DNA from: Streptomyces sp. NRRL WC-3626 | GTDB lineage: Bacteria; Actinomycetota; Actinomycetes; Streptomycetales; Streptomycetaceae | DNA: 21,978 nucleotides | Direction of reading: 5' to 3' | Assembly (NCBI RefSeq): GCF_000718785.1 | Contig: NZ_JOCA01000042.1 | Coordinates: 1-21,978, forward strand | Part shown: positions 3,921 through 21,978 of the stretch, piece by piece | How the letters are laid out: each line of letters starts with the position of its first letter | Position numbering within the stretch: position 1 is the first letter of the stretch | Translations under genes and position numbers: made by a program | Notes under the pieces: generated by a model | What the model was told of the DNA's origin: nothing | Database searches by the model: none | The model's input: the letters and a program-made list of their open reading frames with translations, nothing else

Positions 3921-3925
3921 CGCGG

Positions 3926-4762: not shown

Positions 4763-4780
4763 TGCACGAGCGGGCGCGGG

Positions 4781-6775: not shown

Positions 6776-6792
6776 GGGGCCGAGCCTATGCA

Positions 6793-6840: not shown

Positions 6841-6863
6841 ACTGGGGGCCATACGTTCGCGGC

Positions 6864-7790
6864 ATGAAGATGAAGACCGCGCGTATCCATGCGTTCGGCG
6901 ACGCGTCCGTGATCCGTTACGACGATGTTCCCCGGCCCCGGCCCGCCCCTGGTGAAGTCCTCGTCCGCGTTGCCGCGACCTCGTTCAACCCCACGGAGGC
7001 CGCACTGCGCGCCGGGCTGTTGCAGGCGTTCCTGCCCGTGGATCTCCCCTACACACTGGGCTGGGACGTCGCCGGCACGGTGGCCGGGATCGGCCCGGGG
7101 ACCCGGGGGCATGCCGTCGGCGACCGGGTCGTGGGGCGGCTGGAGGGCGCGGCGGCCGCCGAGTACGTGACGGCGCCGGGTGCACTGCTGGTTCTGGCAC
7201 CGGCGTCCGTTCCACTCACGCACGCAGCGGCCCTTCCCGTGGCCGGCCTGACAGCCTGGCAGGCGGTGTTCGAGCACGGGAAGGTGACCGCCGGCCAGCG
7301 GGTACTGGTCAACGGCGCGGGGGGAGGCGTCGGTGGGTTCGTGACACAGCTCGCCAAAAACGCCGGAGCCGAGGTGATCGCCACGGCCGGCGCCCGCAGC
7401 ACCGCGGCGGTCCAAAAACACGGAGCGGACCACGTGATCGACTACACCGCCCTGCCGGTCGCAGCCGCACTCGACCGCCCAGTGGACACGCTGCTCAATC
7501 TCGTTCCACTGAGCCCGCACGACGCCGCGGCGCTGGCATCCGTGGTACGGCCGGGCGGACGGATCGTCTCGGTCACGGTCCCGTTCGAGCCACCCGCCGA
7601 AACCGGAGTGACGGCGACCCACATGGTCGCCCGTAACGATGTGGCACATCTGGCGGCGCTCGTCGAACTCGTCGACACGGGGAAGGTCACCCTCGATATC
7701 AGCGCCTCACACCCGCTCACCGCCCTCGCGGACGTCCACCGCCTCAGTGAAGCGGGCCGAATCCGCGGCAAAGTCGTCATCGTCGCCTGA
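6864..7790 (+). CDS. NADPH-dependent quinone oxidoreductase-like MDR enzyme
   Basis: A 308-residue medium-chain reductase starting at ATG 6864 (MKMKTARIHAFGD). The N-terminal GroES-like half contains the usual LPYTLGWDVAGTVAGIGPG strand-turn, and the Rossmann half has the dinucleotide loop NGAGGGVGGFVTQLAK near residues 155-170. The cysteine and histidine ligands for catalytic zinc are absent, which places it with the zinc-free quinone oxidoreductases rather than alcohol dehydrogenases. It ends with the GKVVIVA motif common to the family. Expected reaction: NADPH-dependent reduction of a quinone or enone in the cytoplasm. The divergent AraC-type gene is the likely regulator. The true substrate cannot be told. 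Confidence 0.88.
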   Translation: MKMKTARIHAFGDASVIRYDDVPRPRPAPGEVLVRVAATSFNPTEAALRAGLLQAFLPVDLPYTLGWDVAGTVAGIGPGTRGHAVGDRVVGRLEGAAAAEYVTAPGALLVLAPASVPLTHAAALPVAGLTAWQAVFEHGKVTAGQRVLVNGAGGGVGGFVTQLAKNAGAEVIATAGARSTAAVQKHGADHVIDYTALPVAAALDRPVDTLLNLVPLSPHDAAALASVVRPGGRIVSVTVPFEPPAETGVTATHMVARNDVAHLAALVELVDTGKVTLDISASHPLTALADVHRLSEAGRIRGKVVIVA

Positions 7791-8040
7791 CGGGCCACCT
7801 CGACGAACGCCGAGCCGCAGAAAGCGACCCGGCCCCAGGCCGCAAAGGTGACGCCCCCTCACTTCCTTGCCGACCGTTCTGCACGCAGCCCTTCCCACCC
7901 GGCCGCTGAAGCCGCGATACGCAGCGCCCGGACGAAAATCCTCTACGGCCAGGGATGACGACCGCCCCCTGAGGGCCACCGGGATGCCCTGCCGGCCACT
8001 TCCGAACCACCAGCCGGACTGCCCCAGGCACCTCCGAAAG
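7791..8040. other. Decayed intergenic sequence, nothing recognised
   Basis: About 250 bases between the oxidoreductase stop and the esterase relic. A long plus-strand frame runs through from 7867, but its first 55 residues are proline/arginine-rich and resemble no family I know, and no ribosome site precedes it. Confidence 0.4.
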
Positions 8041-8673
8041 TTCCGCATCCACGGGCCTGCACAGTACGACCCAGCCCAACCGGCACCTCTGAGGTACGCG
8101 GCGCGTTCGTCCTGGACAACCTCATTCACCGCGGCGACACCCCCGTCACCATCAGCGTGTTCGTCGATCCTGACGTCTTCCCCCGCGCAGAGAACCCGAA
8201 GAACCGGAACAACGAGTACGACGCCATCGACGACCAGTACGTCACCTTCCTCCGCACCAAGATCATCCCGCGGGCAGCAAAACGCCATACCCCCGCGCAA
8301 ATCGCCCGAAAGGTGGGGCATCTACGGCGGGAGCACCGGCGACAACCGCGCCTTCACCGCCGCATGGCTGCGCCCGGACCGGTTGTGCCGCGTCCGCCGC
8401 GTCATCGGACGTCTGTCCGGCCGCGCGCAGATGCCGGACGACAGCCCCTACCCGGACCTCATCTCCCGCGTCCCCCGCAAACCCCTGCGCATCGTCATGC
8501 AGGACGGCCACCACGACCTGCACCGGAACGAACCACGGAGGAACCAGCCCGCCGAAAACCTGCGTGTGGCAGCCGCTCTCGCTGAAGCGGGCCACGACTT
8601 CCGCCTTGCCCCGGCAGACGGCGCACACAGCCCCAACCACGGCGGCATCCTGCTGCCGGACGCTCCGCGCTGC
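8041..8673 (+). pseudogene. Frameshifted esterase (enterochelin esterase-like, alpha/beta hydrolase)
   Basis: Pieces of one esterase lie in different frames. Frame 1 at 8062-8088 reads AQYDPAQPAPL. Frame 3 from about 8103 to 8280 reads FVLDNLIHRGDTPVTISVFV and continues to RNNEYDAIDDQYVTFLRTK. From about 8308 it is back in frame 1 with RWGIYGGSTGDNRAFTAAW, where GGSTG keeps the G-x-S-x-G nucleophile elbow. Further on are MQDGHHDLHRNE and DGAHSPNHGGILLPDA, the acid and histidine regions of the family. At least two frame changes and a missing N-terminus make it inactive. It runs directly into a transposase fragment in the same frame. The family is recognised with good confidence; parent length would be near 400 residues. 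Confidence 0.75.
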
Positions 8674-8676
8674 CCG

Positions 8677-8838
8677 ACCGGGCAACTCGCCGAGCACCGC
8701 CGGCAGGTCGGCACCCGCCGGCGGCGCCCACCCCCGAACCGGCAGGCCCTGCTCGTCCTGGCCCACCTGCGCTGCGGTGACACCTGCACCCGGCCGGCGG
8801 CCTCCTTCGGCACAGGTGTGGCCACGGTCTACCAGTTG
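8677..8838 (+). pseudogene. IS5-type transposase relic (N-terminal helix-turn-helix part)
   Basis: About 54 residues in the same frame as the end of the esterase relic. The core NRQALLVLAHLRCGDT followed by FGTGVATVYQLL is the helix-turn-helix region near the N-terminus of many Streptomyces IS5-type (DDE_Tnp_4) transposases. The resemblance stops abruptly after 8838 and no DDE catalytic part is found downstream, so only a fragment remains. It may mark the insertion or recombination that cut off the esterase gene. Confidence 0.6.
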
Positions 8839-8978
8839 CTGCCGAGCTCCGCCACCGCCCACCACACCCGCGCCACCGCCGAGGCACTCCTCGGCGCTCC
8901 CACACCCGGCAGTGCCCCCGCCCGCCACGCCCGCCGCCGACCAGCTCCTCGCCCGACCCCCGCCTGCACCACCACCCC

Positions 8979-9250
8979 GACGACACCATCCCTCATGACG
9001 ACGGCACGTCTCCTACGACGACGGCACCCACCCCGGCCGCCCACTTCCCTCCCGCCCCCGGCCATCCCGACTGCCCCGATCTCACCGGCCCGCCCGCGGC
9101 CCGCCAACTCCACACACTGTGCGAAACCGCCGTCACCCGCCCTCCCCCCCCGACGCCCTGGCCTTCCACTACACCCTCTGCCTGCACCACCGCACCCGCG
9201 GCGAACAGCACGCCGCCGCCTTCTACGCCCAGCAGACCGGCCTCGACCCC
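8979..9250 (+). pseudogene. Unassigned coding relic split by a frame change at a C run
   Basis: Frame 3 from about 8979 reads HPDDTIPHDDGT and later DLTGPPAARQLHTLCETAVT; at the C-rich run near 9140-9151 the plausible sequence moves to frame 2 and continues ALAFHYTLCLHHRTRGEQHA then AAFYAQQTGLDPT. The two parts have protein-like composition unlike the surrounding proline/arginine-rich frames, so I read them as one decayed gene. I do not recognise the family. No ribosome site was found. Confidence 0.35.
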
Positions 9251-10044
9251 ACCCCCCCGGCGCCGGCGAGGAGCCCTGCCCCATCCGCCCCGCGGGAACC
9301 CATGACCCGAGCGTCGATACCGACTGGCCGGGGGACCGCAGATGAGGCGGGGGAGGGCTACGTCGCTGGTGAGCATGTACGGACGGCCTGCCTGCCGCCG
9401 GCAAACGGATCGGTGAGCGTCTGACCGGGCAGTTCACGCTCTGGGCGAAAGGAAAGAGGGGACACACGCAACGGCTTCGCGCCCACCCCAGTGACCTCAA
9501 AGACCGCTCCGCAGGCGTACGTGCCGCAGCGAGCCGCCGCAGGGTGATGCGGGCGGCCGTTCACCGCGTGCGGGACCGCCGGACAACTCCCGCCTCGCCA
9601 GACAAAGATGCCCGCCCCCGCGCCCTACACCAGGCCGACCACGAGCACACCCGCGACGGACACGGCCGGACGAGCGGCGCGGTCCCCACAGTCACTGAGG
9701 ACGGCACCCGGCAACCGAAGGCCCCGGCACACACCCGCCTGCAAATCCCCCCACCGGCCTCCCGGCACTCCCGGCCTCCGGCCACCCGCTCATCCGTCCA
9801 TGCCCCACCCCGCCGACGAAACTTTCCAGCCACTCCGGCACACCGCCCTACGGCCGGGCCCCACGGCCCGGGAACCCGGCCCCGGGACGGCCACACGCCC
9901 CCGACGGCCCACCCCCACCCCCATCCCCGGGGCGGGCCCCGGACACTCCCGGCCGGACCGCACAAAGAGTGATTTAAATTGCCATTTACTCGGTTGGCCT
10001 CTCCCCGCACATCGGCCGAATTCTGCTCTTGATAGCAATAATGA
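9251..10044. other. Gene-poor decayed region with GC-rich hairpins and an AT-rich edge
   Basis: No gene is supported here. Frames on both strands are low-complexity (Pro, Arg, His, Thr) and lack ribosome sites. Between 9852 and 9942 there are two tight hairpins: GGCCGGG (9852-9858) with CCCGGCC (9875-9881), and CCGGGGC (9927-9933) with GCCCCGG (9936-9942). From about 9965 the base composition changes sharply to AT-richer sequence that leads into the promoter of the next gene. Confidence 0.45.
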
Positions 10045-10074
10045 TTGCCGGTCCGGCACCGTCACACCTATGAT
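10045..10074 (+). promoter_or_regulatory. Sigma-70-type promoter for the secreted DUF2690-like protein
   Basis: TTGCCG (10045-10050), an 18-bp spacer and TATGAT (10069-10074) match the primary (HrdB-type) promoter pattern. The expected start near 10081 gives a leader of about 48 bases before the GTG start at 10129. The surrounding stretch is unusually AT-rich for this window. Confidence 0.55.
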
Positions 10075-10128
10075 CATCCGGCGCTTCACATAAATGCTCG
10101 TACCATCTGCATGGAATCCGGAGCCTTC

Positions 10129-10584
10129 GTGAACAAGATAGTGACCCGTACCGCGACCATCTCTGCAGCCGTTGTCGCGATGGGCATGCTCCCCCTGGCC
10201 GGCACCTCGTTCGCCGCGAGCTGCAGCGGGACAAGCTGCGACAACAAGGGTCCGAGAGCCACAGCCTGCGAAACGGCGAGCGTCTCCACACAGCGGACCA
10301 TCGACAACAACAGCCGCAAAGCCGAACTGCGCTGGTCGTCGGGGTGCAGCGCAGCCTGGGTCCGGGTGACGAACAACTCCTCGAACTCGCTCTACAACTC
10401 CTACGGCTACATCGAGAAGTACGACTCCGCCGGCAAGCTCATCCGCTCGCTCAGTATCCGCGTCCCGGACACCACCGGCGGCTCGGACTGGTCGAACATG
10501 CTGGGCGGCGCCAGCTACTACTACCGCGTCTGCATCTCTTTCGTCGGCAACGAGTACCCGCTGAAGTGCAGCTCGAAATTCTGA
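10129..10584 (+). CDS. Small secreted DUF2690-type protein
   Basis: A 151-residue protein. GTG 10129 is chosen because GGAG at 10120-10123 precedes it by five bases and translation then opens directly with a signal peptide; ATG 10111 is a weaker choice. Residues 1-29 form a Sec signal (basic NKIVTR start, hydrophobic core, TSFA cleavage region). The mature part opens ASCSGTSCDNK and has six cysteines, enough for three disulfides, plus many Asn, Ser and Tyr, which fits an extracellular beta-rich fold. The SCxGxxCxxKxP start and later RWSSGCSAAWVRV are the DUF2690 pattern. Function is unknown. It has its own promoter and a downstream stem-loop, so it is monocistronic. Confidence 0.82.
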   Translation: MNKIVTRTATISAAVVAMGMLPLAGTSFAASCSGTSCDNKGPRATACETASVSTQRTIDNNSRKAELRWSSGCSAAWVRVTNNSSNSLYNSYGYIEKYDSAGKLIRSLSIRVPDTTGGSDWSNMLGGASYYYRVCISFVGNEYPLKCSSKF

Positions 10585-10601
10585 AACACCAAAAAACCGA
10601 C

Positions 10602-10650
10602 GGCCGTCACCGGGCACCCCGCACCGCCCGCTGACGGCCCCGGCCGTTTT
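10602..10650 (+). terminator. Stem-loop with T tract after the DUF2690-type gene
   Basis: GGCCGTCA (10602-10609) pairs with TGACGGCC (10632-10639), and an overlapping tighter hairpin ACGGCC-CC-GGCCGT (10634-10647) runs directly into TTTT (10647-10650). It lies just after the stop codon of the secreted protein. Confidence 0.6.
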
Positions 10651-10677
10651 CACGCAACTGAACTTGATTGGGTGATG

Positions 10678-10715
10678 TCGGTGCCGTTCGCCTGACAGCC
10701 GGCCGTCGGCACCGA
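10678..10715. repeat. 9-bp inverted repeat at the left edge of the IS630-type element
   Basis: TCGGTGCCG (10678-10686) and CGGCACCGA (10707-10715) are perfect complements, 20 bases apart. The repeat ends directly before a TA dinucleotide at 10716-10717, the target type of IS630 elements, so it may be a hairpin target beside the insertion or part of the element's end. Confidence 0.4.
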
Positions 10716-10721
10716 TAGCCG

Positions 10722-11267
10722 TTGGGTGGGAGGTATGCGCAGGGCGGCGGGCTGACCGACGCCGAGAGGACCACGCGGGAGCGGTTACGGCTCCAGGCCG
10801 TGGAGCGTTTCGTGGGCGGGCAGAAGAACGCGGAGATTGCCGCTGCCCTGCGGATCAGCTTGCGGTCGGTCGAGCGGTGGCGCCGGGCCTGGCGCGAGAG
10901 CGGCGAGGCGGGAGTCCTGTCGAAGGGGTCGCCGGGAAGACCTCGACTCAGTGAAGCCCAGTTCGACAGGCTGGAGCAGGAGTTGGAGCGTGGTCCACTG
11001 GCTCACGGCTGGGCGGACCAGCGGTGGACCCTGGCACGGATCAAGACGCTGATCGGCCGGCTCTTCCACGTCTCCTACACGGTCGAGGGCACCTGGCGGC
11101 TGCTGAAGCGCCACGGGTGGAGCTGGCAGCAGCCCACTCGACGGGCGATCGAGCGCGATGACGACACGATCGAGGTGTGGAAGAAGGAGACCTGGCCGCG
11201 GGTAAGAGCACCGCGGCGGAGCGCAACGCCTGGATCCTCTTCGAGGACGAGGCCGGGCAGTCGATGA
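10722..11267 (+). CDS. IS630 transposase, N-terminal frame (DNA-binding part)
   Basis: A 181-residue frame that would start at TTG 10722, the only start giving the family's usual RYAQGGGLTDAER opening. It holds a helix-turn-helix (NAEIAAALRISLRSVERWRR, about residues 33-53) and a second winged-helix part (DQRWTLARIKTLIGRLFHVS then WRLLKRHGWSWQQP). After about residue 155 (ETWPRV) the frame leaves the transposase and ends in a basic tail; the catalytic part continues one frame back. The protein can become complete only through a -1 frameshift, or it is a broken copy that lost one base near the GTAAG at 11201-11205. Confidence 0.78.
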   Translation: MGGRYAQGGGLTDAERTTRERLRLQAVERFVGGQKNAEIAAALRISLRSVERWRRAWRESGEAGVLSKGSPGRPRLSEAQFDRLEQELERGPLAHGWADQRWTLARIKTLIGRLFHVSYTVEGTWRLLKRHGWSWQQPTRRAIERDDDTIEVWKKETWPRVRAPRRSATPGSSSRTRPGSR

Positions 11268-11791
11268 CTCCGCCGCGCGCCAGGACCTGGGGCCGGATCG
11301 GCCAGACCCCGGTCGTGAGGGTGAGGGGCCGAGGCTCGGGGCGCGTGTCGATGGCGGGGATGGCCGGCTACAAGCCGGGCCAGCGGTCCCGGCTGATCTA
11401 CGCGATCCGCGAGTACCGGGGCCGCAAGGACGAACCGAAGGGCTTCGGCTGGCGCGACTTCCGTGACCTGATCGTCCGCGCTCGCATCCAGCTCGGCGGA
11501 CCGATCGTGCTGGTCTGGGACAACGTCCGCCTGCACCTGACGGCCGGCATGCGCGAGTTCATCGACGCGAACGCCGAGTGGCTCACTGTGTTCCAGCTGC
11601 CTACCTATGCCCCGGACCTCAACCCGACCGAGGGAGTCTGGTCGCTGGTCAAGCGGTACATCGGCAACCTCGCCGCGGCCGACCTCGGCCAGATCACCCG
11701 CGCCGTGAAGCGCAAACTGAAGATGCTGCAGTACCGACCGGAGGCCATCGACGGTTGCCTCGCCGGCACCGACCTGGCCCTGGACCTGTGA
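11177..11791 (+). CDS. IS630 transposase, C-terminal DDE frame
   Basis: This 204-codon frame overlaps the first by 91 bases in the -1 frame. It encodes the catalytic RNase-H-like core: WILFEDEAG with the first Asp at residue 24, IVLVWDNVRLH with Asp115, and NPTEGVWS with Glu152, the D-D-E arrangement of the IS630/Tc1 group with 36 residues between the last two. The GTG at 11177 could start it on its own, but a DDE part without the DNA-binding half would not work. Expected role: single-strand cutting and joining of the element ends at TA targets. Confidence 0.8.
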   Translation: MEEGDLAAGKSTAAERNAWILFEDEAGQSMTPPRARTWGRIGQTPVVRVRGRGSGRVSMAGMAGYKPGQRSRLIYAIREYRGRKDEPKGFGWRDFRDLIVRARIQLGGPIVLVWDNVRLHLTAGMREFIDANAEWLTVFQLPTYAPDLNPTEGVWSLVKRYIGNLAAADLGQITRAVKRKLKMLQYRPEAIDGCLAGTDLALDL

Positions 11792-11855
11792 GCGTGGGGT
11801 CGACCGACCCGTAATTGGTCGAAGCCCAAAGCTGCTGGTCAGCTACGGTGGCGGC

Positions 11856-12938
11856 ATGACTGACAGCATGCCCGAGGTCTCCTTCAAGGGCGGCTTCAAG
11901 AGAGCGCCGCTGGAGGTCTCCAAGGCCGACGGCGAGCCTGTGGATCTGACCCGCTCGGGCCAGGGCAGCACCCGGCGCATCGCCCTCGCCGTGTGGGAGT
12001 GGACCAGCAGCCTCCTCGAAAGCAGTGAACTCGCCGCGACGGGGGAGCAGGACGAGCCGCAGCCCACCCAGACCATCGTCGTCTACGACGAGCCCGACAC
12101 CCACCTCGACTACCGCCACCAGCGCACCGTCATGGACATCATCCGCAAGCAGTGTGCCCTGCCCCACGTCAGCGTCATCGTCGCCACCCACTCGATGAAC
12201 CTCATCGACGGCGTCGACATCGCCGACGTCGTCCACCTCAAGCTCAGCGACAGCGGCCGCACCCTCGTCGAGCGCCTCGACGGCGACACCCACGACGGCA
12301 TCGACTTCCACCTCGGACAGATCGCCGCCGCGGTGGGACTGCGCAACTCCGTCCTGCTGCACGAACGCTGCTTCCTGGCAGTCGAAGGCCCCACCGAGCA
12401 GCAGTGCGTGCCCCTGCTCTTCCGCCTCTCGCAGGGACTGCCCCTGCAGGCGGCCGGCATCGCCCTGTGGGCCTGCGACAACAACGAAGGAGCACTCCAC
12501 CTCGCGGGCTACCTCGTCAAGCACCATCGCACCGTCATGCTGATGGTCGACGCCGACAGCCGCGCAAATAAGCACTTCAAAACCGAGAAACTCATCAAAG
12601 CCGGTCTCGACCTCACCAAGCAGGTCTCGTACGTCGGCGAGAGCCAGGGCTACAACGAACTGGAAGAGCTCTTCAGCGACCTCCAGTGGGCAGCCGCCGC
12701 CAACGCCCACTGGCCCCGCCCCGAGGGCCAGCCCTGGAGCGCCGACGACTTCAGCGAGCACCGGGGCGGCAAGTTCAGCGAGCGCATCCTCTACATGATC
12801 AAACAGCAGGCCGCAGAGAGCAGCCCCAACGGCAAGGCCGACATGCTCTACGCACTGGTGTCCATGCTCACCACCCCCGAAGAGGTCCCCCAGCAGCTAC
12901 GGGACATCTTCACCGAGGTGCAGGCCCTCGCCTGCTGA
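11856..12938 (+). CDS. OLD-family ATPase/TOPRIM nuclease, 5'-truncated
   Basis: A 360-residue frame from ATG 11856. It contains the second half of an ABC-type ATPase: signature-like SGQG at 34-37, Walker B VVYDEP at 75-80 (Glu79) and switch His112 in ATHS. A TOPRIM nuclease domain follows, with VEGPTE at 176-181 (Glu177) and the metal pair DAD at 232-234, then an acidic ELEELFSD. Walker A and the rest of the N-terminal ATPase half are missing. Homologous-looking sequence (LLVSYGGG) continues in frame upstream of the ATG, up to the IS630 edge, so the gene was probably cut by the element. OLD nucleases act on DNA, often in phage defence. This copy should not bind ATP normally. Confidence 0.8.
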   Translation: MTDSMPEVSFKGGFKRAPLEVSKADGEPVDLTRSGQGSTRRIALAVWEWTSSLLESSELAATGEQDEPQPTQTIVVYDEPDTHLDYRHQRTVMDIIRKQCALPHVSVIVATHSMNLIDGVDIADVVHLKLSDSGRTLVERLDGDTHDGIDFHLGQIAAAVGLRNSVLLHERCFLAVEGPTEQQCVPLLFRLSQGLPLQAAGIALWACDNNEGALHLAGYLVKHHRTVMLMVDADSRANKHFKTEKLIKAGLDLTKQVSYVGESQGYNELEELFSDLQWAAAANAHWPRPEGQPWSADDFSEHRGGKFSERILYMIKQQAAESSPNGKADMLYALVSMLTTPEEVPQQLRDIFTEVQALAC

Positions 12939-13122
12939 CCTGCTGCTGCGTTCGCCGCTGCAGCATGCGCTCCTTGCGCTGCTCAGTGGTCGGCGCCGTC
13001 CAGGCGTGCCATCCGGCCTCCGCAGTCCATTGCCGCGCGTGCGCGCGGGCTTCGATTCCGCACCACCGGCAGCCCCCGGGTGCCACAGTGTGCTCGGTCC
13101 TGGCAGAACGCGATAACGACAT
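12910..13122 (-). CDS. Small CxxC protein, unknown role
   Basis: A 70-residue protein read from ATG 13122 down to 12910. A near-perfect ribosome site, AAGGAGG, sits five bases upstream of the start, which makes this small gene credible. It contains GGCRWCGIEARAHARQW, a CxxC pair like half a zinc ribbon, then a tryptophan-rich GWHAW and a basic, Gln-rich helix (EQRKERMLQRR). Similar short CxxCG...HxRQW proteins occur in streptomycetes and their phages (from memory, not checked). It is convergent with the OLD-type gene and overlaps its last 29 bases, and is divergent from sbcD. Confidence 0.7.
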   Translation of the reverse strand: MSLSRSARTEHTVAPGGCRWCGIEARAHARQWTAEAGWHAWTAPTTEQRKERMLQRRTQQQVSRRGPAPR

Positions 13123-13299
13123 CACATCCTCCTTCCCCCACTGCTTATCTTGCCTCCTGCCACTGACAATCACCCTGCGAGCCGCGTCCGGCTCCGCCAC
13201 CCGGCGGCGCATACGAAGAAACCTTTCCCTCACGTGCCCCAAGTCCCCGAAACAAGACCGTTTATCGGGAAAACCGCCCGTAGCTCCCACCACTCTGGT

Positions 13300-13314
13300 T
13301 ACGGTCTGTGCCCA
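13300..13314 (+). promoter_or_regulatory. Possible -10 element for a leaderless sbcD transcript
   Basis: TACGGT (13300-13305) fits the actinomycete TAnnnT -10 pattern and would place the transcript start within a few bases of the sbcD ATG at 13314. No ribosome site precedes that ATG, which agrees with a leaderless message. No good -35 was seen. Confidence 0.3.
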
Positions 13315-14483
13315 TGAGGTTCCTGCATACCTCGGACTGGCATCTCGGCTGCCGGTTCCACGGGGAAGATCTGATCGACCACCAGCGCAAGGTCCTGGAC
13401 CACATCTGCGCCACCGCCCGCACCCAGAAGGTGGACGCCCTGCTGATCGCGGGCGACATCTACGACCGTGCCATTCCGAGCCTGGACGCGGTACGTCTGT
13501 TCGACCGGGCTCTGCACCAGCTTGCCGACCTTGGTATCCCCACCGTCATGATCAGCGGGAACCACGACTCGGCCCACCGTCTCGGTACTGGCTCTGGCCT
13601 GTACGCCAAATCCGGCGTTCACCTGCGCACCGACCCCGCCGACGCTGCCCGCCCCGTCCTCCTCGACGACGAGCACGGTCCCGTCGCCGTCTACGGAGTG
13701 CCCTACCTCGAGCCCGCCCTGGTACGCACCCAGTTGGACGCAGAGACAGCCTCCCACCAGGCCGTTCTCACCTCGGCACTGGACCGCATCCGGACTGACC
13801 TCGCCACCCGTCCGGGCGCCCGCTCCGTCGTCCTCGCCCACGCCTTCATTACCGGTGCCACCACCAGCAAAAGCGAACGCGACATCAGCGTCGGCGGAGT
13901 CGCACACGCCGGCGCCGACCTCTTCGACGGCATCGACTACACCGCCCTGGGCCATCTGCACCGCCCGCAGAGCGTCAACGACCGCATCCACTACAGCGGC
14001 TCCCCACTGGCCTACTCCTTCTCCGAGGCCAACCACACCAAATCGATCACCCTGGCCGACCTGCCAGCCGCCGGAGCCCCCACGATCACCCGCCACAACA
14101 TCCCGGCCGACCTCCATCTGCCGCTGGCCCGGTTGACCGGCCGCATCGAGGATCTGCTGACCGACCCCGCGCACGAAGCTCTCAGCGAAGCCTGGCTGCA
14201 GGTCACCCTCACCGACACCGCCCTGCCGTACGAGGCGATGGCACGACTCAGACAGCGCTTCTCCAAGACGCTGGACATGCGGCACGTACCCGCTGGCATC
14301 CCGGCACAGGCCACCGACAGCCCCACCTACCGCGAACGGGTACGCGGCCGCGGCGACCTCGACATCGCCCACGACTTCATCACCGCCGTGCGCGGCACCC
14401 CACCCACCACCGCAGAGGCAGGCCTCCTGCAAGAGGCCGTCGACGACATGCGCGTGCGCGCCCAGGAGAAGGAAACCGTCTGA
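13314..14483 (+). CDS. sbcD: SbcD-type exonuclease subunit (Mre11 family)
   Basis: A 389-residue calcineurin-like phosphoesterase. ATG 13314 gives the canonical opening MRFLHTSDWHLG; an in-frame GTG two codons earlier is possible. Metal-binding motifs are in order: D8 and H10 (SDWH), D48 (GDIYD), N83-H84-D85 (GNHD), H176 (VVLAH), and H214/H216 (GHLH). The C-terminal third is the usual DNA/partner-binding cap. With SbcC it forms the ATP-driven nuclease that opens DNA hairpins and trims protein-blocked ends. The next gene starts one base after this stop, so the two are co-translated. It sits about 8 kb from telomere-like palindromes. Confidence 0.93.
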   Translation: MRFLHTSDWHLGCRFHGEDLIDHQRKVLDHICATARTQKVDALLIAGDIYDRAIPSLDAVRLFDRALHQLADLGIPTVMISGNHDSAHRLGTGSGLYAKSGVHLRTDPADAARPVLLDDEHGPVAVYGVPYLEPALVRTQLDAETASHQAVLTSALDRIRTDLATRPGARSVVLAHAFITGATTSKSERDISVGGVAHAGADLFDGIDYTALGHLHRPQSVNDRIHYSGSPLAYSFSEANHTKSITLADLPAAGAPTITRHNIPADLHLPLARLTGRIEDLLTDPAHEALSEAWLQVTLTDTALPYEAMARLRQRFSKTLDMRHVPAGIPAQATDSPTYRERVRGRGDLDIAHDFITAVRGTPPTTAEAGLLQEAVDDMRVRAQEKETV

Positions 14484-14484
14484 C

Positions 14485-17400
14485 ATGCGTCTGCACTCCC
14501 TGCGCCTGCAGGCCTTCGGCCCCTTCGCCCGCCGGCACACCGTCGACTTCGACGCCCTGTCCGCCGACGGCCTGTTCCTCCTGCACGGCGACACCGGCGC
14601 CGGCAAGAGCACCCTGTTCGCCGCCATCTGCTTCGCCCTGTATGGCCTGCCGCCTCACGAACGCAACATGCGGCTGCGCAGCGATCACGCTCCCGCGGAC
14701 CTGCTGACCGAAGTGACCCTGGAATTAACCCTGGCCGGCAAGCGCCTGCAGATCCGCAGGATCCCCGCCCAGAAGCGACCCCACCTGCGCAACAGCGCAG
14801 AACTCGTCGACCAGAAGGCCGAAACCCACCTGCACCAGTGGGTCCTCGACGAACACGGACACGGCCGGTGGGAAGGCGTCATCAAGTCCCACAGGGAAGC
14901 CGCAGAGGAGATCAAGTCCCTCCTGCGCCTGACCCGGCAGCAGTTCTGCCAGGTCGTCCTGCTCCCGCAGAACGAGTTCACCAAGTTCCTGCGTGCCGAC
15001 GCATCTGAACGCCGCATCCTGCTTGGCACCCTCTTCGGCACCCGCCGCTTCGGCCTCATCGAAGAATTCCTCGCCAACCGCAAAACCCTCACCGCGAAGA
15101 CGCGCGACGAGGCCCGCGCCGACGTCCTGCGCCTGGCCGAACGCATCAAGCAGGCAGCCGGCGACGACCTCGAACCCGCCCAGAACGCCCCCCGGGCCGA
15201 CGACCCCGCCACCCTCACCGCACCCGCCCGCGCGTGGGCCAGCGCCCTGCACCACCAAGCCCTCACCCGCCAGTACGCCGCCGACGCCGCCACCGAGACC
15301 GCCGAGCAGCAGCTGGCGCAAGCCCGCCTGACAGAACAGGCCGTCCGCGACCTCCACCGTCTCCAGCAGGCCCACCGCACCACCGCACACGAGCTCGACC
15401 TGCTCCAGGAGGAGGCCACCCGCCACGACCTCCTTGCCGAACGCCGCGACCGGGCTGTGAAAGCTCAGCAACTGCAATCCGTCCTGGAGACCGCGCACAC
15501 CGCCGACCGCGAGCACACCCGTGCCCTGGACGAGGACAGCCGCGCCCGCGCCCTGCTGCCGCCCGAACACACATCCCTCGACGACGCTGGCCTCACTCAC
15601 GCCGCGCAGCAGCTGCACGCCGACACCGGCGCTGTCCAGGCGCTGCTGCCCGACGAGGCCACCCTCCAGCGCCACACGGCAGAACTGGCCGCACTCGACC
15701 GCGAGCGCCAGCAGCTCACCGAAACCCTCACCGACGCCCAGCAATGGCTCAACGCCCTTCCACAACGCCGCGCCGACCTTGCCGCACGTCTGGAAGCCGC
15801 CCACAGCGCGCAGGAAACCAGCCGCGAACTCACCCCCACCCTCAACCTCGTTGAAAAGCAGCTGGAAGCCGCCAGGCGCCGTGACGCCCTCGACCAGCAG
15901 ATCAGCGTCGCCCACAAAGTCCTCAGCCAGGCCGAGAAGGACTCCGAGCAAGCCGCGAAAACGTACATCGACATCCGACGCCGCCGCACGGACGGCATCG
16001 TCGCCGAACTCGCCGACCGGCTCGTCGACGGCGAAGACTGCCCCGTATGCGGTTCCCCCACCCACCCCGCACCCGCCACTGCCCAGCCAGGCCAGCCCAC
16101 CGCCGCCGACGAACAGGCCGCCGAAGCAGCCCACACCCGCGCCCAGCAGAGTGAGAACAAGGCCAAAGAGGCCCTGGCCCACCTGAACGAACAGGCCGCC
16201 ACGGCACGCGGTGAAGCCGGCGGCGACACCCCTCTCGCCGACCTCACCGCCCACCGCACCGCCCTCGAACAACACCTCGCCGACGCCCTCTCCCAGGCAT
16301 CCGACGCCGGACCGGCCAGCGAACAACTCGCCCTTCTGGAAAAGGAACAGGCCGAAACCGAGCACACCCGCAACACCGCCACCGCACGCATGGGCGCCGC
16401 CGACGCAACCTACGACAGCCTGCACACGCAGCGCGAAGAGCTCACCCACCGCCTCGCCACCGCCCTCAACGGGCACGCCACACTCGCCGACCGCATCACC
16501 GCCCTCACCCAGCACGCCAGCCGCCTCGACGCCGCCGCCGCGTGCGCCGCCACCGTGACAACAACCGCCACAGACCGCCACAGCGCCGCCGCTCTCGCCG
16601 AGCAGGCAGCCCACGCGGCAGGCTTCACCTCCCCGGCCGAAGCCTCGGCCGCCCGCCTGCCCGACGACGAACTCACCGCGATCGACAAAGAGATCACCCA
16701 CTGGCGTGAACAGCGCCTCGTACTGACCGCCCGGCTCGCGGAACCCGAACTGCAGGCAGCCATCACCCAGCCACCCGCCGACCTCGAGCACGCCGTCACC
16801 GAACTGAACACCGCCACCACAACCCACACCCGCACGGCAGCCCTCGCCACCCAGGCCGCCGACCGGACAACCACCCTGGCCGCCCTCACCGCTCAGCTGG
16901 ACACCCAGATCCAGCGCCTGGAACCCCTTGAGGACGCCTACGGCACCGTCGATCACCTCCACGGCCTCATCAGCGGCAGCTCCCCCAGCAACCAGCTCCG
17001 CATGCAACTGGAGTCCTACGTCCTGGCAGCCCGTCTCGAAGACGTCGTCGACGCCGCCAACACCCGCCTGTCACGCATGTCCCACCACCGCTTCACCCTC
17101 GTCCACTCCGACGACAGAGCTGCCCGAGGCGCCAAATCGGGCCTGGACCTCAAGGTCCTCGACGCCTGGAGCGGACACAAACGCCACACGGACACCCTCT
17201 CCGGCGGCGAATCCTTTTACGTCTCCCTGGCCCTCGCCCTGGGCCTGGCCGACATCGTCACCGCCGAAGCCGGCGGCCAGGCACTGGACACCCTCTTCAT
17301 CGACGAAGGCTTCGGCACCCTCGACGAAGACACCCTCCACCAAGTCCTCGACGTCCTGGACTCCCTACGCGCCCACGACCGCACCGTCGGACTCATCAGC

Positions 17401-17499
17401 CACGTCCCCGAACTCCGCCGCCGCATCACCCAACGCCTGCACATCTCCAAGAACATCGACGGCTCCACCATCACCCACCTGACCGAAGCGGCCGAATGA
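14485..17499 (+). CDS. sbcC: SbcC-type ATPase subunit (Rad50 family)
   Basis: A 1004-residue SMC-like protein, normal length for the family. ATG 14485 is one base after the sbcD stop and has AGGAGAAGGAA upstream inside sbcD. Walker A GDTGAGKST is at residues 35-43. Long Ala/Gln/Glu-rich coiled coils flank the zinc hook CPVC (Cys519, Cys522). The C-terminal half carries the signature TLSGGESFYVSLALALGLAD near 905 and Walker B DTLFIDEGFGTLD near 935. It powers SbcD to cut DNA hairpins and blocked ends. Leu81 is encoded by TTA (14725-14727), the codon read by the developmentally controlled bldA tRNA in Streptomyces, so full translation may depend on growth stage. Confidence 0.94.
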   Translation: MRLHSLRLQAFGPFARRHTVDFDALSADGLFLLHGDTGAGKSTLFAAICFALYGLPPHERNMRLRSDHAPADLLTEVTLELTLAGKRLQIRRIPAQKRPHLRNSAELVDQKAETHLHQWVLDEHGHGRWEGVIKSHREAAEEIKSLLRLTRQQFCQVVLLPQNEFTKFLRADASERRILLGTLFGTRRFGLIEEFLANRKTLTAKTRDEARADVLRLAERIKQAAGDDLEPAQNAPRADDPATLTAPARAWASALHHQALTRQYAADAATETAEQQLAQARLTEQAVRDLHRLQQAHRTTAHELDLLQEEATRHDLLAERRDRAVKAQQLQSVLETAHTADREHTRALDEDSRARALLPPEHTSLDDAGLTHAAQQLHADTGAVQALLPDEATLQRHTAELAALDRERQQLTETLTDAQQWLNALPQRRADLAARLEAAHSAQETSRELTPTLNLVEKQLEAARRRDALDQQISVAHKVLSQAEKDSEQAAKTYIDIRRRRTDGIVAELADRLVDGEDCPVCGSPTHPAPATAQPGQPTAADEQAAEAAHTRAQQSENKAKEALAHLNEQAATARGEAGGDTPLADLTAHRTALEQHLADALSQASDAGPASEQLALLEKEQAETEHTRNTATARMGAADATYDSLHTQREELTHRLATALNGHATLADRITALTQHASRLDAAAACAATVTTTATDRHSAAALAEQAAHAAGFTSPAEASAARLPDDELTAIDKEITHWREQRLVLTARLAEPELQAAITQPPADLEHAVTELNTATTTHTRTAALATQAADRTTTLAALTAQLDTQIQRLEPLEDAYGTVDHLHGLISGSSPSNQLRMQLESYVLAARLEDVVDAANTRLSRMSHHRFTLVHSDDRAARGAKSGLDLKVLDAWSGHKRHTDTLSGGESFYVSLALALGLADIVTAEAGGQALDTLFIDEGFGTLDEDTLHQVLDVLDSLRAHDRTVGLISHVPELRRRITQRLHISKNIDGSTITHLTEAAE

Positions 17500-17608
17500 C
17501 CCCACGACGGACGCCGGACCCGCCCTCGCCGACGAAACGCAAGCCCCAGGCCGCGCACACTCACTGATCTTCAACCTGCCGTCGGCCCAAGGCGTAGCCA
17601 CAACCGCC

Positions 17609-17653
17609 GGGGCTGCCTGTACCCCTCTCGGCCCCGTCGAGAAAGGCAGCCCC
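17609..17653 (+). terminator. Two-tier stem-loop after sbcC
   Basis: GGGGCTGCCT (17609-17618) pairs perfectly with AGGCAGCCCC (17644-17653); inside the loop TCTCG (17626-17630) pairs with CGAGA (17638-17642). It starts 110 bases after the sbcC stop and is a likely terminator without a T tract. Confidence 0.6.
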
Positions 17654-17903
17654 ACAGCGCTCCCGCGTCGAAAGCCGCCCATCCCTGAAGGCACCCGACC
17701 TGCCTCCCAGAAGGAGCGCATCGAACACGTACTGCTTCATGCCATTTCTGCATGTGATCGAAGTGACGGAAACAGAGCACTGCGGTGCATGAGCACCTGC
17801 ATCGGCCACCGCAGCCGTACCAGAACACGCCAGTCCAGTCCGCATGACAGGAGTTTCCGCAGATCCGAGAACCACTGTCCCGCATGTTCGAACACCGCCG
17901 GAC

Positions 17904-17920
17904 CCGTGACCGCGTCACGG
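17904..17920. promoter_or_regulatory. Perfect 7-bp inverted repeat, operator candidate
   Basis: CCGTGAC and GTCACGG are separated by CGC. The palindrome lies about 125 bases upstream of the small membrane protein gene, in a region with no gene of its own, so it could bind a dimeric regulator. Confidence 0.35.
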
Positions 17921-18045
17921 CGCGTTTTCGAGGCACTGCCAAGGCCTCCGCTGATCAAACCGGCGGATTTGTCAGTGCCCGCTGCTACACCAATTCCCAG
18001 AGATCAGACCGCAGTTGGCGGCCTGACGACATGGAGGAGGAAGCA

Positions 18046-18252
18046 GTGGCGAAGCCGACCGAGGGCTACTACAAGGTGCGAAGTCATTACCGACGCAAAC
18101 CCCGCCCCAGCGCGAAGAAACTGAGCGGCTGGTCGATCGCAGGGCTGATCGCGGTGGTGTGGCTATGGAGCCAGCTCATCGGCTTCGGAGAGGCCTCCCC
18201 GACAACACCGCAAACCCCTACACCATCAGTGTCAGCGAGCGTGGGCCACTGA
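18046..18252 (+). CDS. Small single-pass membrane protein, unknown role
   Basis: A 68-residue protein. GTG 18046 is chosen because GGAGGAGG (18034-18040) lies five bases before it; ATG 18031 would cover that site. The N-terminus is basic (YYKVRSHYRRKPRPSAKK), followed by one transmembrane helix (SIAGLIAVVWLWSQLIGF) and a short Pro/Thr/Ser tail, so the basic part should face the cytoplasm. The stop shares one base with the ATG of the next gene (TGATG), so it is coupled to the membrane-anchored endonuclease. I do not recognise the family; a helper role for the endonuclease is a guess from coupling. Confidence 0.65.
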   Translation: MAKPTEGYYKVRSHYRRKPRPSAKKLSGWSIAGLIAVVWLWSQLIGFGEASPTTPQTPTPSVSASVGH

Positions 18253-18437
18253 TGCCCCGCCGCTCGCCCCGGCTACGCCCACCCCGCGGCGGCAGGGAAC
18301 AGGCCGCCGCCGCAGCCGTCGCCTGCGCCGCACTCTGGCTGCTGGCCAAGATCGCCACAGCCACATGGCAGGCAGCCGTCCGCATCTGGCCATGGCTCGC
18401 CGTTCTCGCGGCTCTCGCCCTCGGCTACGCAGCTTGA
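18252..18437 (+). CDS. N-terminal membrane anchor of an Mrr-type endonuclease, ended by in-frame TGA
   Basis: Sixty-one residues from ATG 18252: a basic start (MPRRSPRLRPPRGG) followed by two hydrophobic stretches (QAAAAAVACAALWLLAKIA and WPWLAVLAALALGYA). The TGA at 18435-18437 stops it, but the same frame continues at once with RFIRELQARKVRAQ and an endonuclease domain. Related streptomycete proteins, as I remember them, are one polypeptide with this anchor, and a Trp codon (TGG) at this point would restore it. So this is either the front half of a nonsense-mutated gene, a read-through product, or a separate small membrane protein. Confidence 0.6.
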   Translation: MPRRSPRLRPPRGGREQAAAAAVACAALWLLAKIATATWQAAVRIWPWLAVLAALALGYAA

Positions 18438-18467
18438 CGGTTCATCCGTGAACTGCAGGCCCGGAAG

Positions 18468-18929
18468 GTGCGGGCCCAGACGCTGGCCCGGCTCCGGATC
18501 ACGCTCGCGCAACTCGACGCCATGGACGACCGGGCCTTCGAGTTCGCCCTACGTGACCTGCTCCTCCGGGACGGCTGGAACGCACGGCAGGTCGGCCAAC
18601 AAGGAGACCAGGCCGCAGACGTCATCGGCGAAGACCGCCAACGCGGCAGAATCGTCCTGCAGGCCAAGCATACGACCGTCGCCGGCAAGGTCGGCTCCTC
18701 AGTGATGTACCAGGTCAAAGGCACCGCAGGCCCCGCGCACGGAGCTGATATCGCAGTCGTGGTCACCAACGGCTCCTTCACCCGGGACGCCAAAACATGG
18801 GGCGAACGCCACCAAGTGCACTGGATCGACCGGGACCGCCTGCGCCGGTGGGCCGAACACGGCACGCCCCTGCAAGACCTTCTGCGCCTGCCCACGTCAC
18901 GCAAGACAGCCTTCCGCCGGGCTGCCTGA
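18468..18929 (+). CDS. Mrr-type restriction endonuclease domain, separated from its anchor
   Basis: About 153 residues if started at GTG 18468; no good ribosome site precedes it, since GGAAG touches the start codon. The domain has the Mrr/PD-(D/E)xK pattern: Glu in AFEFALRDLLLRDGW, Asp in GDQAADVIGE, and QAK in IVLQAKHT, followed by GADIAVVVTNGSFTRDAK and a WIDRDRLRRW strand-helix typical of the family end. These catalytic residues are intact. Expected activity is DNA cleavage, perhaps of modified or foreign DNA. The frame is open back to the TGA at 18435, so the original protein of 225 residues was membrane-anchored. Whether this half is made depends on read-through or re-initiation. Confidence 0.72.
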   Translation: MRAQTLARLRITLAQLDAMDDRAFEFALRDLLLRDGWNARQVGQQGDQAADVIGEDRQRGRIVLQAKHTTVAGKVGSSVMYQVKGTAGPAHGADIAVVVTNGSFTRDAKTWGERHQVHWIDRDRLRRWAEHGTPLQDLLRLPTSRKTAFRRAA

Positions 18930-18995
18930 AACCAAGCGGAGAAAGCCCGAACCCCGAGCCGTCGCCCCCTATCCGCATCCGACAACACTGATCAT

Positions 18996-19024
18996 GGGGC
19001 GCGCATGGGCTGGCAGCGCGCCCC
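18996..19024. repeat. Strong stem-loop between the endonuclease and helicase genes
   Basis: GGGGCGCGC (18996-19004) and GCGCGCCCC (19016-19024) form a perfect 9-bp stem with an 11-nt loop, 67 bases after the endonuclease stop and 88 before the helicase start. It may be a terminator without T tract or a structure in the helicase leader. Confidence 0.5.
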
Positions 19025-19111
19025 CGCCAGAGCAGAGACACTGCGCCGCACCCCTGCTGTACGCGAGAATGAACGCGAGTCAGCCCCTCCTGCATGCCGA
19101 GGAAACGCGCG

Positions 19112-21538
19112 ATGACCGCCAGTCCCACCGCAACAGAACACCCCGGGCGTCTGGTCCTGCGCACAGACCAGCAGGAGGGCCTCGCCAACACGCTTCGCCA
19201 CCTGCGCCGCCCGCGCACCCGCGGGCACGCCGTCTCGGCCTGCGGCACCGGCAAGACCCTCTTCGCACTGCGCGTAGCCGAGGAACTCGGCGTGCGGCAC
19301 CTGGCAGTGGCGGTGCCCAGCCTGGACCTGGTCGCACAGTGGGCAGCGTCCGCCCGCGCAGACGGCCGCCGCGAGCCGATGATCACCGTCTCCTCGCTAC
19401 GCGCCGCCTCCCACCCGTTGCTCGCCGAGGCCGAGGTCGACTCGGCCAACGCGGGGGAGTACCTGGCCTACTGGCTCGGCCGCCACCCCAAAGCGACGGT
19501 CTTCTTCACCTACGACTCGCTGTCCAAGATCGAAGAGGCCCAACACTCCGCGATCTTCCCCGCCCCCCTCTTCGGCCTGCTGGTCGTGGACGAAGCCCAC
19601 GCCACGGCCGGCACCTGGGAGAAGAACTGGACTGCGCTGCACGACAACGAGCGCATCCCTGCCGAGCGCCGCCTCTACCTCACCGCCACCCCCTATGTGT
19701 GGGACGCCCCCCGCCTGACCGAGCCGCCCACCACCAGAGCGCAACCCAAGCGCACCACCGCCACCGCACCCGCCTGGGACGACCCAGCCCTGCTGGCGAC
19801 CATGGACCAGCCGCAGATCTTCGGCCCCCGCCTGCACACCTACTCCCACGCCGACGCCATCGATGACGGGGTCCTCGCCGACTACCAGCTCGTCGTCCCC
19901 ACCGTCACCGACACTGAACTGCACAACGCGCTCACCGATCCTGAAGCCCGGCCCACCGCGCGCCACACCACCGCCCTGCACTTGGCCATCCTCAAAGCCA
20001 TGCGCGAGCAGGACCTGCGGCACGTGTTCGTCTACTTCCAGCAGATCGCCGACGCCGCCGACTTCGCCCGCCAGTTCGCCCACACCCTGCGCACCCTCCC
20101 CGACGAACTGCGCCCCGACTGGGCGGACGACGTCGTCGTGCAGTCCATCGACGGCACCCACAGCCCCCACCGGCGCGCCGACACCATCGCCCGCTTCAGC
20201 AACGCCGAGCGAGGCGTGCTGGCCAACGCCAAGGTCCTAGGCGAAGGCGTCGACCTGCCGGCCGTCGACGCCGTCGTCTTCGCCGACCGCACCGCCAGCG
20301 TCCGCCGCATCGTTCAAGCGCTCGGCCGCGCCCTGCGCAAACCACCCACCCTCAAGACGAAGACAGCCAGCCTCGTCATCCCCGCCTACATCCCGCCCGG
20401 CACCGACCCCACCGACCTCCTCGGCACCCCCTACGAAGCCCTCTGGCTGGTCACCGCCGCCCTGCGCCACCACGACCAGACCATCGCCGCCCGCACCCCC
20501 CGGGCCAAGAACCAGCATCCCGCCCGCGACTCCCACACCTACATCACCCGCCGCTTCCGCTTCGACCACACCCTCGACCCCACCGCGATCGCCCGCGCCC
20601 TCGACCTGCTGGTGTGGCCCTCCAGCGGCGCCGTCCTGTCTGCTCCCCGCCGCGCTGGCCTAGCCGCCGCCATCCGCTACCAAAGCGAACACAGCCACCT
20701 GCGCGTGAGCGCCGACTACGAGGACGCTTACGGCTACCGGCTGGGGCAATTCATCACCGGCCAACGCACCGCCTACCAGGCAGGCGCCCTCGATCCGGCA
20801 TGGATCGCCGAGCTCGAGGATCTCGGCATGATCTGGGACGACCACGAGGCCACCTGGCAAGGCCACCTGGCCACCGTCGAGGCCTTCCATGCCGAACACG
20901 GCCACCTTGCCATCCCCACCCAACTACCCGGCGGCCAGTTCCTTGCCGACCAGCGCGCCCTAGCCCGAAAGGACCGCCTCACCCTCGACCGCGACAACCA
21001 GCTCACAGCCCTCGACCCAGACTGGAAACTCCCCTACGGCCCCGACTGGCATCGCAAGTACCATCTGCTGCGCCGCCACCTGGAAGCCGGCAACCACCCC
21101 AGCACGCTGCGCCGCGACACGGTCATCCACGGAGTGAAGGCGGGCAGCTGGCTACACCGCCAGCTCACCAGCTGGCCCGACCTCGACCCCGGCCAGCGCG
21201 ACCTGCTCGCCCGCATGGGAATCACCCCCGACCGCACCCTCCTGGAACAGAAACACGCCGCGGGCAGGCCGAGCACATCGCGGCGGCGCACGTTCGCGCA
21301 AACCACCGAGATCCTCGGGCTCTTCGTGGCACGGTGGGGACGCACCCCCGGCGCCCGGGAGTGGATCGAGGTGGACGGCGACCGTGTCATGATCGGTCCC
21401 TGGCTCGCCAAGGTCCGCACCAAGCTGAACAATGATCAACTCCCCTCAGAGCAAGAAGAGTTGGTGTCCGCTACCCTTGCCGAGCACGGCATCGATCTGA
21501 TCCGTGCTCCTGGGACCATCGGACCATCAAGCGGCTGA
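19112..21538 (+). CDS. DEAH-box helicase with helicase-associated repeats, TtrA-like
   Basis: An 808-residue protein. ATG 19112 follows GAGGAAA by seven bases; ATG 19094 would overlap that site. The superfamily 2 core has Walker A CGTGKT (44-49), DEAH (160-163), LTATP (190-194) and motif VI QALGRALR (402-409). The C-terminal part (about 510-795) holds four repeats of the helicase-associated type, seen as aromatic and HGH/GxWL patterns such as FHAEHGHLAIP and GSWLHRQLTSWP. Helicase genes of this build lie next to telomeres of linear Streptomyces replicons (TtrA group). Here the stop is only 440 bases from telomere-like palindromes. Target DNA and exact role are unknown; TtrA identity is inferred from architecture and place. 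Confidence 0.82.
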   Translation: MTASPTATEHPGRLVLRTDQQEGLANTLRHLRRPRTRGHAVSACGTGKTLFALRVAEELGVRHLAVAVPSLDLVAQWAASARADGRREPMITVSSLRAASHPLLAEAEVDSANAGEYLAYWLGRHPKATVFFTYDSLSKIEEAQHSAIFPAPLFGLLVVDEAHATAGTWEKNWTALHDNERIPAERRLYLTATPYVWDAPRLTEPPTTRAQPKRTTATAPAWDDPALLATMDQPQIFGPRLHTYSHADAIDDGVLADYQLVVPTVTDTELHNALTDPEARPTARHTTALHLAILKAMREQDLRHVFVYFQQIADAADFARQFAHTLRTLPDELRPDWADDVVVQSIDGTHSPHRRADTIARFSNAERGVLANAKVLGEGVDLPAVDAVVFADRTASVRRIVQALGRALRKPPTLKTKTASLVIPAYIPPGTDPTDLLGTPYEALWLVTAALRHHDQTIAARTPRAKNQHPARDSHTYITRRFRFDHTLDPTAIARALDLLVWPSSGAVLSAPRRAGLAAAIRYQSEHSHLRVSADYEDAYGYRLGQFITGQRTAYQAGALDPAWIAELEDLGMIWDDHEATWQGHLATVEAFHAEHGHLAIPTQLPGGQFLADQRALARKDRLTLDRDNQLTALDPDWKLPYGPDWHRKYHLLRRHLEAGNHPSTLRRDTVIHGVKAGSWLHRQLTSWPDLDPGQRDLLARMGITPDRTLLEQKHAAGRPSTSRRRTFAQTTEILGLFVARWGRTPGAREWIEVDGDRVMIGPWLAKVRTKLNNDQLPSEQEELVSATLAEHGIDLIRAPGTIGPSSG

Positions 21539-21578
21539 GGTTTGGCCGCTGAGCTCAGTGCGACAGCAGACGCGTTCG

Positions 21579-21611
21579 CCCGCTCCCGGGTTCCATTCTC
21601 CAGTGAGCGGG
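21579..21611. repeat. 7-bp inverted repeat in the terminal spacer
   Basis: CCCGCTC (21579-21585) pairs with GAGCGGG (21605-21611) over a 19-nt loop. It starts 40 bases after the helicase stop and could act as its terminator. Confidence 0.45.
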
Positions 21612-21631
21612 GGAGTGGCAGAACTCGAATA

Positions 21632-21647
21632 CTCCAAAGTTTTGGAG
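21632..21647. repeat. Tight hairpin in the terminal spacer
   Basis: CTCCAAA (21632-21638) and TTTGGAG (21641-21647) are complementary with only two bases between. It is AT-richer than the other hairpins. Confidence 0.5.
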
Positions 21648-21676
21648 ACAAGGAAGCAGCGGCACACAGGATTGGC

Positions 21677-21711
21677 ACGGCTCGACGTTCTAGTCGTAAC
21701 TGACGAGCCGT
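21677..21711. repeat. 8-bp stem-loop in the terminal spacer
   Basis: ACGGCTCG (21677-21684) pairs with CGAGCCGT (21704-21711); the loop contains further short complements (ACG...CGT), making a longer imperfect hairpin. Confidence 0.5.
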
Positions 21712-21740
21712 CACCAAGCACCCAGTCGGGTAGGCCAACG

Positions 21741-21761
21741 CCCCCGGCCCCCGGCCCCCGG
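21741..21761 (+). repeat. Three tandem copies of CCCCCGG
   Basis: Three perfect 7-base units lie between the spacer hairpins and the terminal palindromes. The opposite strand is G-rich in regular runs. Confidence 0.75.
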
Positions 21762-21832
21762 CTGCTAGCCGAATTAACCTGCACCCCAGTCATGTTGGAC
21801 TTGAAAAGTGAAGGCGAGTCGGGGAGGAGGCA

Positions 21833-21978
21833 CGATCGCGGAGCGATCGGGACACCGCACCGACGATCCAACTCGATCCGCGGAGCGGATCCGGTCCCGG
21901 AGGGACCGAGCCCAGCACCCGCGGAGCGGGTGCTGAACCGACGCGTAGCGTCGGCGCGTCGCTCCTGCGGAGCAGGAC
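21833..21978. repeat. Telomere-like array of six short palindromes with GNA loops
   Basis: Six perfect inverted repeats, each with a 3-nt loop: arms 21833-21839/21843-21849 (GGA), 21875-21881/21885-21891 (GGA), 21892-21898/21902-21908 (GGA), 21913-21922/21926-21935 (GGA), 21938-21944/21948-21954 (GTA), 21963-21968/21972-21977 (GGA). The second and third abut with no gap. The fourth, with 10-bp arms, contains CCCGCGGAGCGGG, the core of palindrome I in archetypal Streptomyces telomeres. The plus strand would be the 3' overhang if this is the right end. GNA loops closed by C-G are known as very stable sheared G-A mini-hairpins, and such loops are described for Streptomyces telomeres. The window ends one base after the last palindrome. 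Confidence 0.75.

Follow-up and report, generated by a model that had tools for sequence, protein, structure and literature searches.

A Streptomyces contig end with an apparent Sg2247-class telomere, and a candidate pair of genes for its capping proteins

The window analysed here, a stretch of 21,978 nucleotides from Streptomyces sp. NRRL WC-3626, is the entire contig C42 (positions 1-21978) of a draft genome of 92 contigs and 7.914 Mb. At its right end we found an array of six palindromes which, judged by its sequence, is a non-archetypal Streptomyces telomere of the Sg2247 class, a new member of a class already described in 2021 (PMC8743542). We consider it likely, with a probability of about 0.8, that the array forms the right-hand end of a linear replicon and that this telomere is capped via a pair of genes on contig C25, which would encode a terminal protein (TP) of about 190 amino acids and a telomere-associated partner of about 500 amino acids. 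The association of the TP family with the Sg2247 class is a computed result, while binding, priming and covalent attachment by the C25 pair are proposed by analogy with Tpg and Tap.

The hairpin array and its telomere class

On the + strand, positions 21833-21977 hold six perfect palindromes, all with 3-nt loops (five GGA, one GTA) and each closed by a C-G pair, which confirms what a preliminary description of the sequence had stated.

21833-21849, + strand: hairpin 1 (innermost), stem 7 bp, loop GGA
21875-21891, + strand: hairpin 2, stem 7 bp, loop GGA
21892-21908, + strand: hairpin 3, stem 7 bp, loop GGA
21913-21935, + strand: hairpin 4, stem 10 bp, loop GGA; contains the archetypal 13-mer CCCGCGGAGCGGG (21918-21930)
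21938-21954, + strand: hairpin 5, stem 7 bp, loop GTA; one of the two class-defining terminal hairpins
21963-21977, + strand: hairpin 6 (outermost), stem 6 bp, loop GGA; variant TCCTGC/GCAGGA (commoner form GTCTGC/GCAGAC)
21978, + strand: contig end; six bases, GCGCGC, probably missing

The same description had called a chance cluster very unlikely, and this was borne out by 5000 dinucleotide shuffles of the array stretch: 4959 contained no GNA hairpin with a stem of at least 6 bp, 41 contained one and none contained more. The rest of the window (positions 1-21800) holds a single hairpin of this kind. Folded as single-stranded DNA, positions 21829-21978 reach -52.8 kcal/mol (z -5.1; 0 of 200 shuffles were as stable), and in the minimum-energy fold the hairpin 2 region and the hairpin 5 loop are paired differently from simple hairpins.

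The last approximately 40 nt of the array match Sg2247-class telomeres, as found by sequence search and by comparison by eye. Plasmid matches to the array include the ends of pSCAT and pSHJG1, which are named as class members by Algora-Gallardo et al. (2021, PMC8743542); the loops of the class are described there as GGA, GAA and GTA. The earlier proposal of a non-archetypal telomere, with the GNA strand as the would-be 3' overhang, thus agrees with our comparison with known telomeres, in which the 13-bp palindrome I of archetypal tips is absent from the window's tip; the 13-base core was correctly placed inside the fourth palindrome, though this is away from the archetypal tip position. The proposal of a new telomere class did not hold, because the terminal two hairpins match those of Sg2247 members (PMC8743542). 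Hairpins 1-4 hardly match the named plasmid members in sequence and might speak for a genuinely new class. However, the terminal approximately 40 nt already contradict this, the GGA and GTA loops fit the class description, and inner hairpins vary among the compared ends (PMC8743542), and we regard a new class as very improbable.

Conservation of the tip was analysed with a pattern built from Sg2247-class telomere ends. It gave 63 matches in named genome contigs, at up to 60 nt from the contig end in 58 and up to 100 nt in 59; the exceptions are four matches more than 1 kb from any contig end. Stems were compared in 64 pattern matches (these 63 and the window), in which the loops add up to 241 GGA, 66 GTA and 23 GAA. 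All seven pairs of hairpin 5 are Watson-Crick in 64/64, where five of the seven 3'-arm bases are fixed by the pattern, and the free pairs 1 and 4 covary: pair 1 is CG in 58, GC in 3 and AT in 3, and pair 4 is CG in 43, TA in 11, AT in 9 and GC in 1. For hairpin 6, with 43 matches long enough, the two outer pairs have one form in 35, the other in 7 and are broken in 1. The commonest tip sequence is AGCAGACCGCGCGC, and three matches carry AGCAGGACGCGCGC, the sub-type of the window. At the position of the contig end, the telomeres of S. tibetensis, Streptomyces sp. CB02414 and S. tagetis, which belong to the window's sub-type, read GCAGGACGCGCGC. Since these three named telomeres have a final GCGCGC, the window probably lacks it.

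Genome comparisons covered 392 genomes of the genus. Arrays closely related to that of the window lie at contig ends in G376, G163 and G261; contig C8 of G163 stops inside hairpin 3, and C255 of G376 ends on the same base as the window. In G376 the loop at the hairpin 1 position is TCC, i.e. GGA on the opposite strand, and the stem sequence of hairpin 4 is changed with its pairing kept. Related arrays are present at both ends of the one-contig genome G051, where they are identical, and in G340 and G206 at one end of the main contig. In G104 the array is part of a terminal inverted repeat that extends over 3641 bp or more. The right end of G104 contig C1 is an exception: its array is incomplete, breaking off within the last hairpins, and the 16 kb beyond it (L035, ~3720 to 20000) have a lower GC content (56-63%). 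Among plasmids, 8 kb of this DNA are without a near match. In G349 (C1:9396000-9412000, L048), a 2.9-kb, 93% copy of the window's subtelomere, including the helicase, stops after the first hairpin. It lies about 1.6 Mb inside the 11-Mb chromosome and is probably the relic of a former end. Four records (NZ_CP108270, NZ_CP108311, NZ_CP108874 and NZ_CP109577) carry class-type tips that point inward and stand about 920 bp away from the end of the record, a layout that would fit a fold-back end or an assembly error of the fold-back kind.

Could the array of the window itself be an internal relic, or a pseudo-telomere where the assembly broke by chance? Internal copies are known, namely the G349 subtelomere and the four tip matches (4/63) more than 1 kb inside contigs, and array copies at internal sites had been named beforehand as an argument against a telomere. 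In this genome, however, the array occurs once and no other copy was found (an inverted copy for the other end may be collapsed in the assembly). Moreover, none of the six hairpins is broken, the contig stops 6 nt short of the canonical end, and the G376 and G163 contigs stop at the same base and within the array, respectively. Such a relic therefore seems to us highly unlikely.

A candidate terminal protein and its partner

In the parts of the 2021 survey used here, no similarity to Tap, Tpg, Tac or Tpc is reported for genomes with an Sg2247-class telomere, and no terminal or telomere-associated protein is named for the class, its proteins being called elusive (PMC8743542). We compared the gene content of plasmids whose ends are of the class type (NZ_CP108301 and NZ_CP108461 as a whole, 50 of the 54.5 kb of NZ_CP108317 and, of NZ_CP109223, the final 20 kb). 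All four encode a protein of 190-196 amino acids, 46-91% identical, and in three of them it is adjoined by a protein of 517-614 amino acids from one family. The small protein has a helix-turn-helix (HTH), and its database names are mostly 'transcriptional regulator'. A profile of this protein (A1) found a single gene in the genome of the window, at C25:40560-41129, and the partner gene lies just upstream at C25:39029-40534. The partner profile gave one further match in the genome, on C10, which covers the HTH part only.

A search for tap and tpg homologues had been suggested earlier. Archetypal Tpg (NCBIfam model NF047541) had no match in this genome, the same search being positive in 295 of the 392 genomes. 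Against NF047541 the TP reached 15.9 bits in the HTH region only (cut-off 90), and the partner reached 68 bits against the Tap model NF047542 in its N-terminal part (cut-off 600). Profile comparison revealed remote homology of the C-terminal domain of the partner to Tap over most of the domain.

Co-occurrence counts refer to the TP gene of the pair, with E values up to 1e-10 for this gene and for Tpg (NF047541). An exact telomere was found in 23 genomes, the TP gene in 159 and Tpg in 295. All 23 exact-telomere genomes carry the TP gene vs 136 of the 369 others, and Tpg is present in 6 of the 23 (one weakly, G236) vs 289 of the 369. Among the 97 genomes without Tpg, 78 have the TP gene and 19 have neither. 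When up to two mismatches are allowed, the telomere occurs in 39 genomes, 36 of them with the TP gene. Fisher tests gave p-values of 3.5e-10, 4e-7 and 4e-20 with genomes treated as independent. In at least 10 of the 23 genomes, the TP gene and the exact telomere share a contig and are no more than 50 kb apart, and in G299 65 kb separate the gene from a copy with one mismatch. The earlier expectation that this telomere has its own variants of Tap and Tpg holds up in these counts (23/23 for the TP gene, 6/23 for archetypal Tpg).

We fetched 40 TP loci, 20 picked for diverged TPs and 20 mainly for telomere genomes. A partner match lies upstream on the same strand in 32 and is missing in 8; in 30 of these 32 it is within 137 nt of the TP gene, and of the other two one is a short fragment and one is 1.6 kb away. 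Lone TP genes without an adjoining partner were seen on G206:C1, G327:C26, G015:C1 and G350:C1, no further than about 0.6 kb from the contig end.

The predicted fold of the partner is that of a phi29-type family B DNA polymerase without the exonuclease domain. Tap is said to have shown polymerase activity in biochemical work of 2015, with no polymerase motif reported. We lean moderately towards the combined view that Tap-type proteins of streptomycetes, archetypal Tap as well as the partner family, are related to the protein-primed family B polymerases of phi29 type but lack an exonuclease, and that the ~190-amino-acid family is the Sg2247 terminal protein.

Taken together, internally started replication would leave a 3' overhang on the + strand at the right end. 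This overhang may fold into a row of GNA-loop hairpins, whose sequence is observed and whose folding we infer. By analogy with Tpg and Tap, the HTH protein, as the likely terminal protein, would prime the final part of the 5' strand. The partner, as the likely telomere-associated protein, would bind the folded overhang and might add the first nucleotides to the protein primer.

Alternatively, the telomere might be of the Sg2247 type and use another terminal protein, the ~190-amino-acid gene being an ordinary regulator carried on linear plasmids and subtelomeres. Its HTH and most of its database names would fit such a role, as would its frequency (159/392 genomes, 136 of them without an exact telomere). 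However, the gene is tightly tied to the class and near-complementary to Tpg, and an adjoining Tap homologue with a predicted polymerase fold is conserved in 30/40 loci. Moreover, size and operon order are Tpg-like, and lone copies lie at most about 0.6 kb from contig ends (G206, G327, G015 and G350). We consider an ordinary regulator unlikely.

Several points weigh against capping by the C25 pair. The pair lies on C25 and the telomere on a separate contig, C42. Profiles of TP and Tpg align weakly and in the HTH only (36.7%). The polymerase match is one of predicted fold, with TM-scores of 0.34-0.40 over the whole model, and no polymerase family appeared among the matches listed from Pfam (for two relatives), NCBIfam or PHROGs. 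The Fisher tests ignore shared ancestry. G099, G210 and G239 (3/39), whose telomere matches have two mismatches each, lack the TP gene, and 136 genomes have the gene and show no exact telomere; missing draft tips, plasmids or other telomere types could explain these carriers. Finally, the TPs of the closest telomere relatives are 64-65% (G163, G376, G261) and 72% (G104) identical to that of this genome, and TPs with 76-78% identity occur in G146, G340 and G324, whose telomeres are less similar. Fine-scale co-evolution of TP and telomere is not seen, because the two rankings disagree.

The telomere is one more case of a known class that many Streptomyces possess, with 61 stretches in named genomes. 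The gene pair and the predicted fold make the missing capping proteins of the class and the question of a Tap polymerase directly testable, and the pair suggests how genomes without archetypal tpg still keep linear chromosomes. The name 'transcriptional regulator' is probably wrong for a large number of database proteins.

The subtelomeric segment

19094-21538, + strand: subtelomeric helicase, 814 amino acids, with ResIII, Helicase_C and two helicase-associated HA stretches
11867-21904, + strand: terminal segment, 99.3% identical over 10,038 bp to the telomeric end of G163 contig C8
13308-14483, + strand: accessory SbcD gene, within the terminal segment
14485-17499, + strand: accessory SbcC gene, within the terminal segment
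10722-11791: IS630-type transposase frames; the first (10722-11267) is under the model cut-off, and the second overlaps it

The helicase gene ends 294 bp before hairpin 1, and its position and domains are, we presume, reminiscent of TtrA. Copies adjoining the same telomere are 94-99% identical in G163, G104 and G376; identity is 64-68% in several plasmids and G340 and 31% in G051. In G163, a TP/partner pair is found just inside the shared segment, 12.7 kb from the contig end. Neither gene is present in the window, where the similarity to G163 stops near the transposase frames, which end about 75 bp short of the match. From this arrangement, an exchange of the terminal segment may plausibly have taken place.

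The SbcD/SbcC pair lies 4.3 kb from the hairpins and has no part in the telomere claim; a second sbcD of the genome, on contig C2, is 55% identical to that of the window. SbcCD attacks hairpins and protein-blocked ends, and its presence beside a hairpin telomere is therefore odd. The subtelomere also contains a putative Mrr-type restriction endonuclease and a putative OLD-like TOPRIM/AAA protein (18468-18929 and 11856-12938), for which 3/3 matches are below the Pfam cut-offs.

Comparison with known systems

Like the Sg2247-class telomeres of S. rimosus ATCC 10970, S. griseus 2247, pSCAT and pSHJG1, as described in PMC8743542, the window has two conserved terminal hairpins with GGA and GTA loops, and its array stands at the contig end with variable inner hairpins. 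It differs in its outermost stem, which is of the TCCTGC and not the GTCTGC sub-type, and in that the final six bases are outside the contig. With archetypal Streptomyces telomeres it shares packed palindromes and GNA loops on the 3' strand, but its tip lacks palindrome I, and the 13-mer sits about 48 nt inward.

The C25 genes resemble archetypal Tpg/Tap as a Tpg-type and Tap-type pair with a TP of Tpg-like size and the same operon order, although the pair reaches neither the curated Tpg nor the curated Tap model. Residues 212-502 of the partner are predicted to fold like the protein-primed family B polymerase of phi29, with a polymerase palm and the invariant Asp in A-like and C-like motifs. 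In contrast to the phi29 enzyme, the aligned part has no exonuclease domain (12% sequence identity), and the partner has an N-terminal HTH and a Cys/His segment instead. For SLP2, tpg genes standing alone have been described (PMC3572947), and the lone TP genes at contig ends resemble them. A non-archetypal pair is cited in the part of PMC7205883 used here, namely GtpA and GtpB of S. griseus IFO13350 (Suzuki et al. 2008), and the C25 pair is like it in being non-archetypal. Proteins close to a TP 45% identical to that of this genome appear under the names of S. griseus, S. anulatus and their kin. The C25 pair may thus be GtpA/GtpB-like, and the two families are perhaps one.
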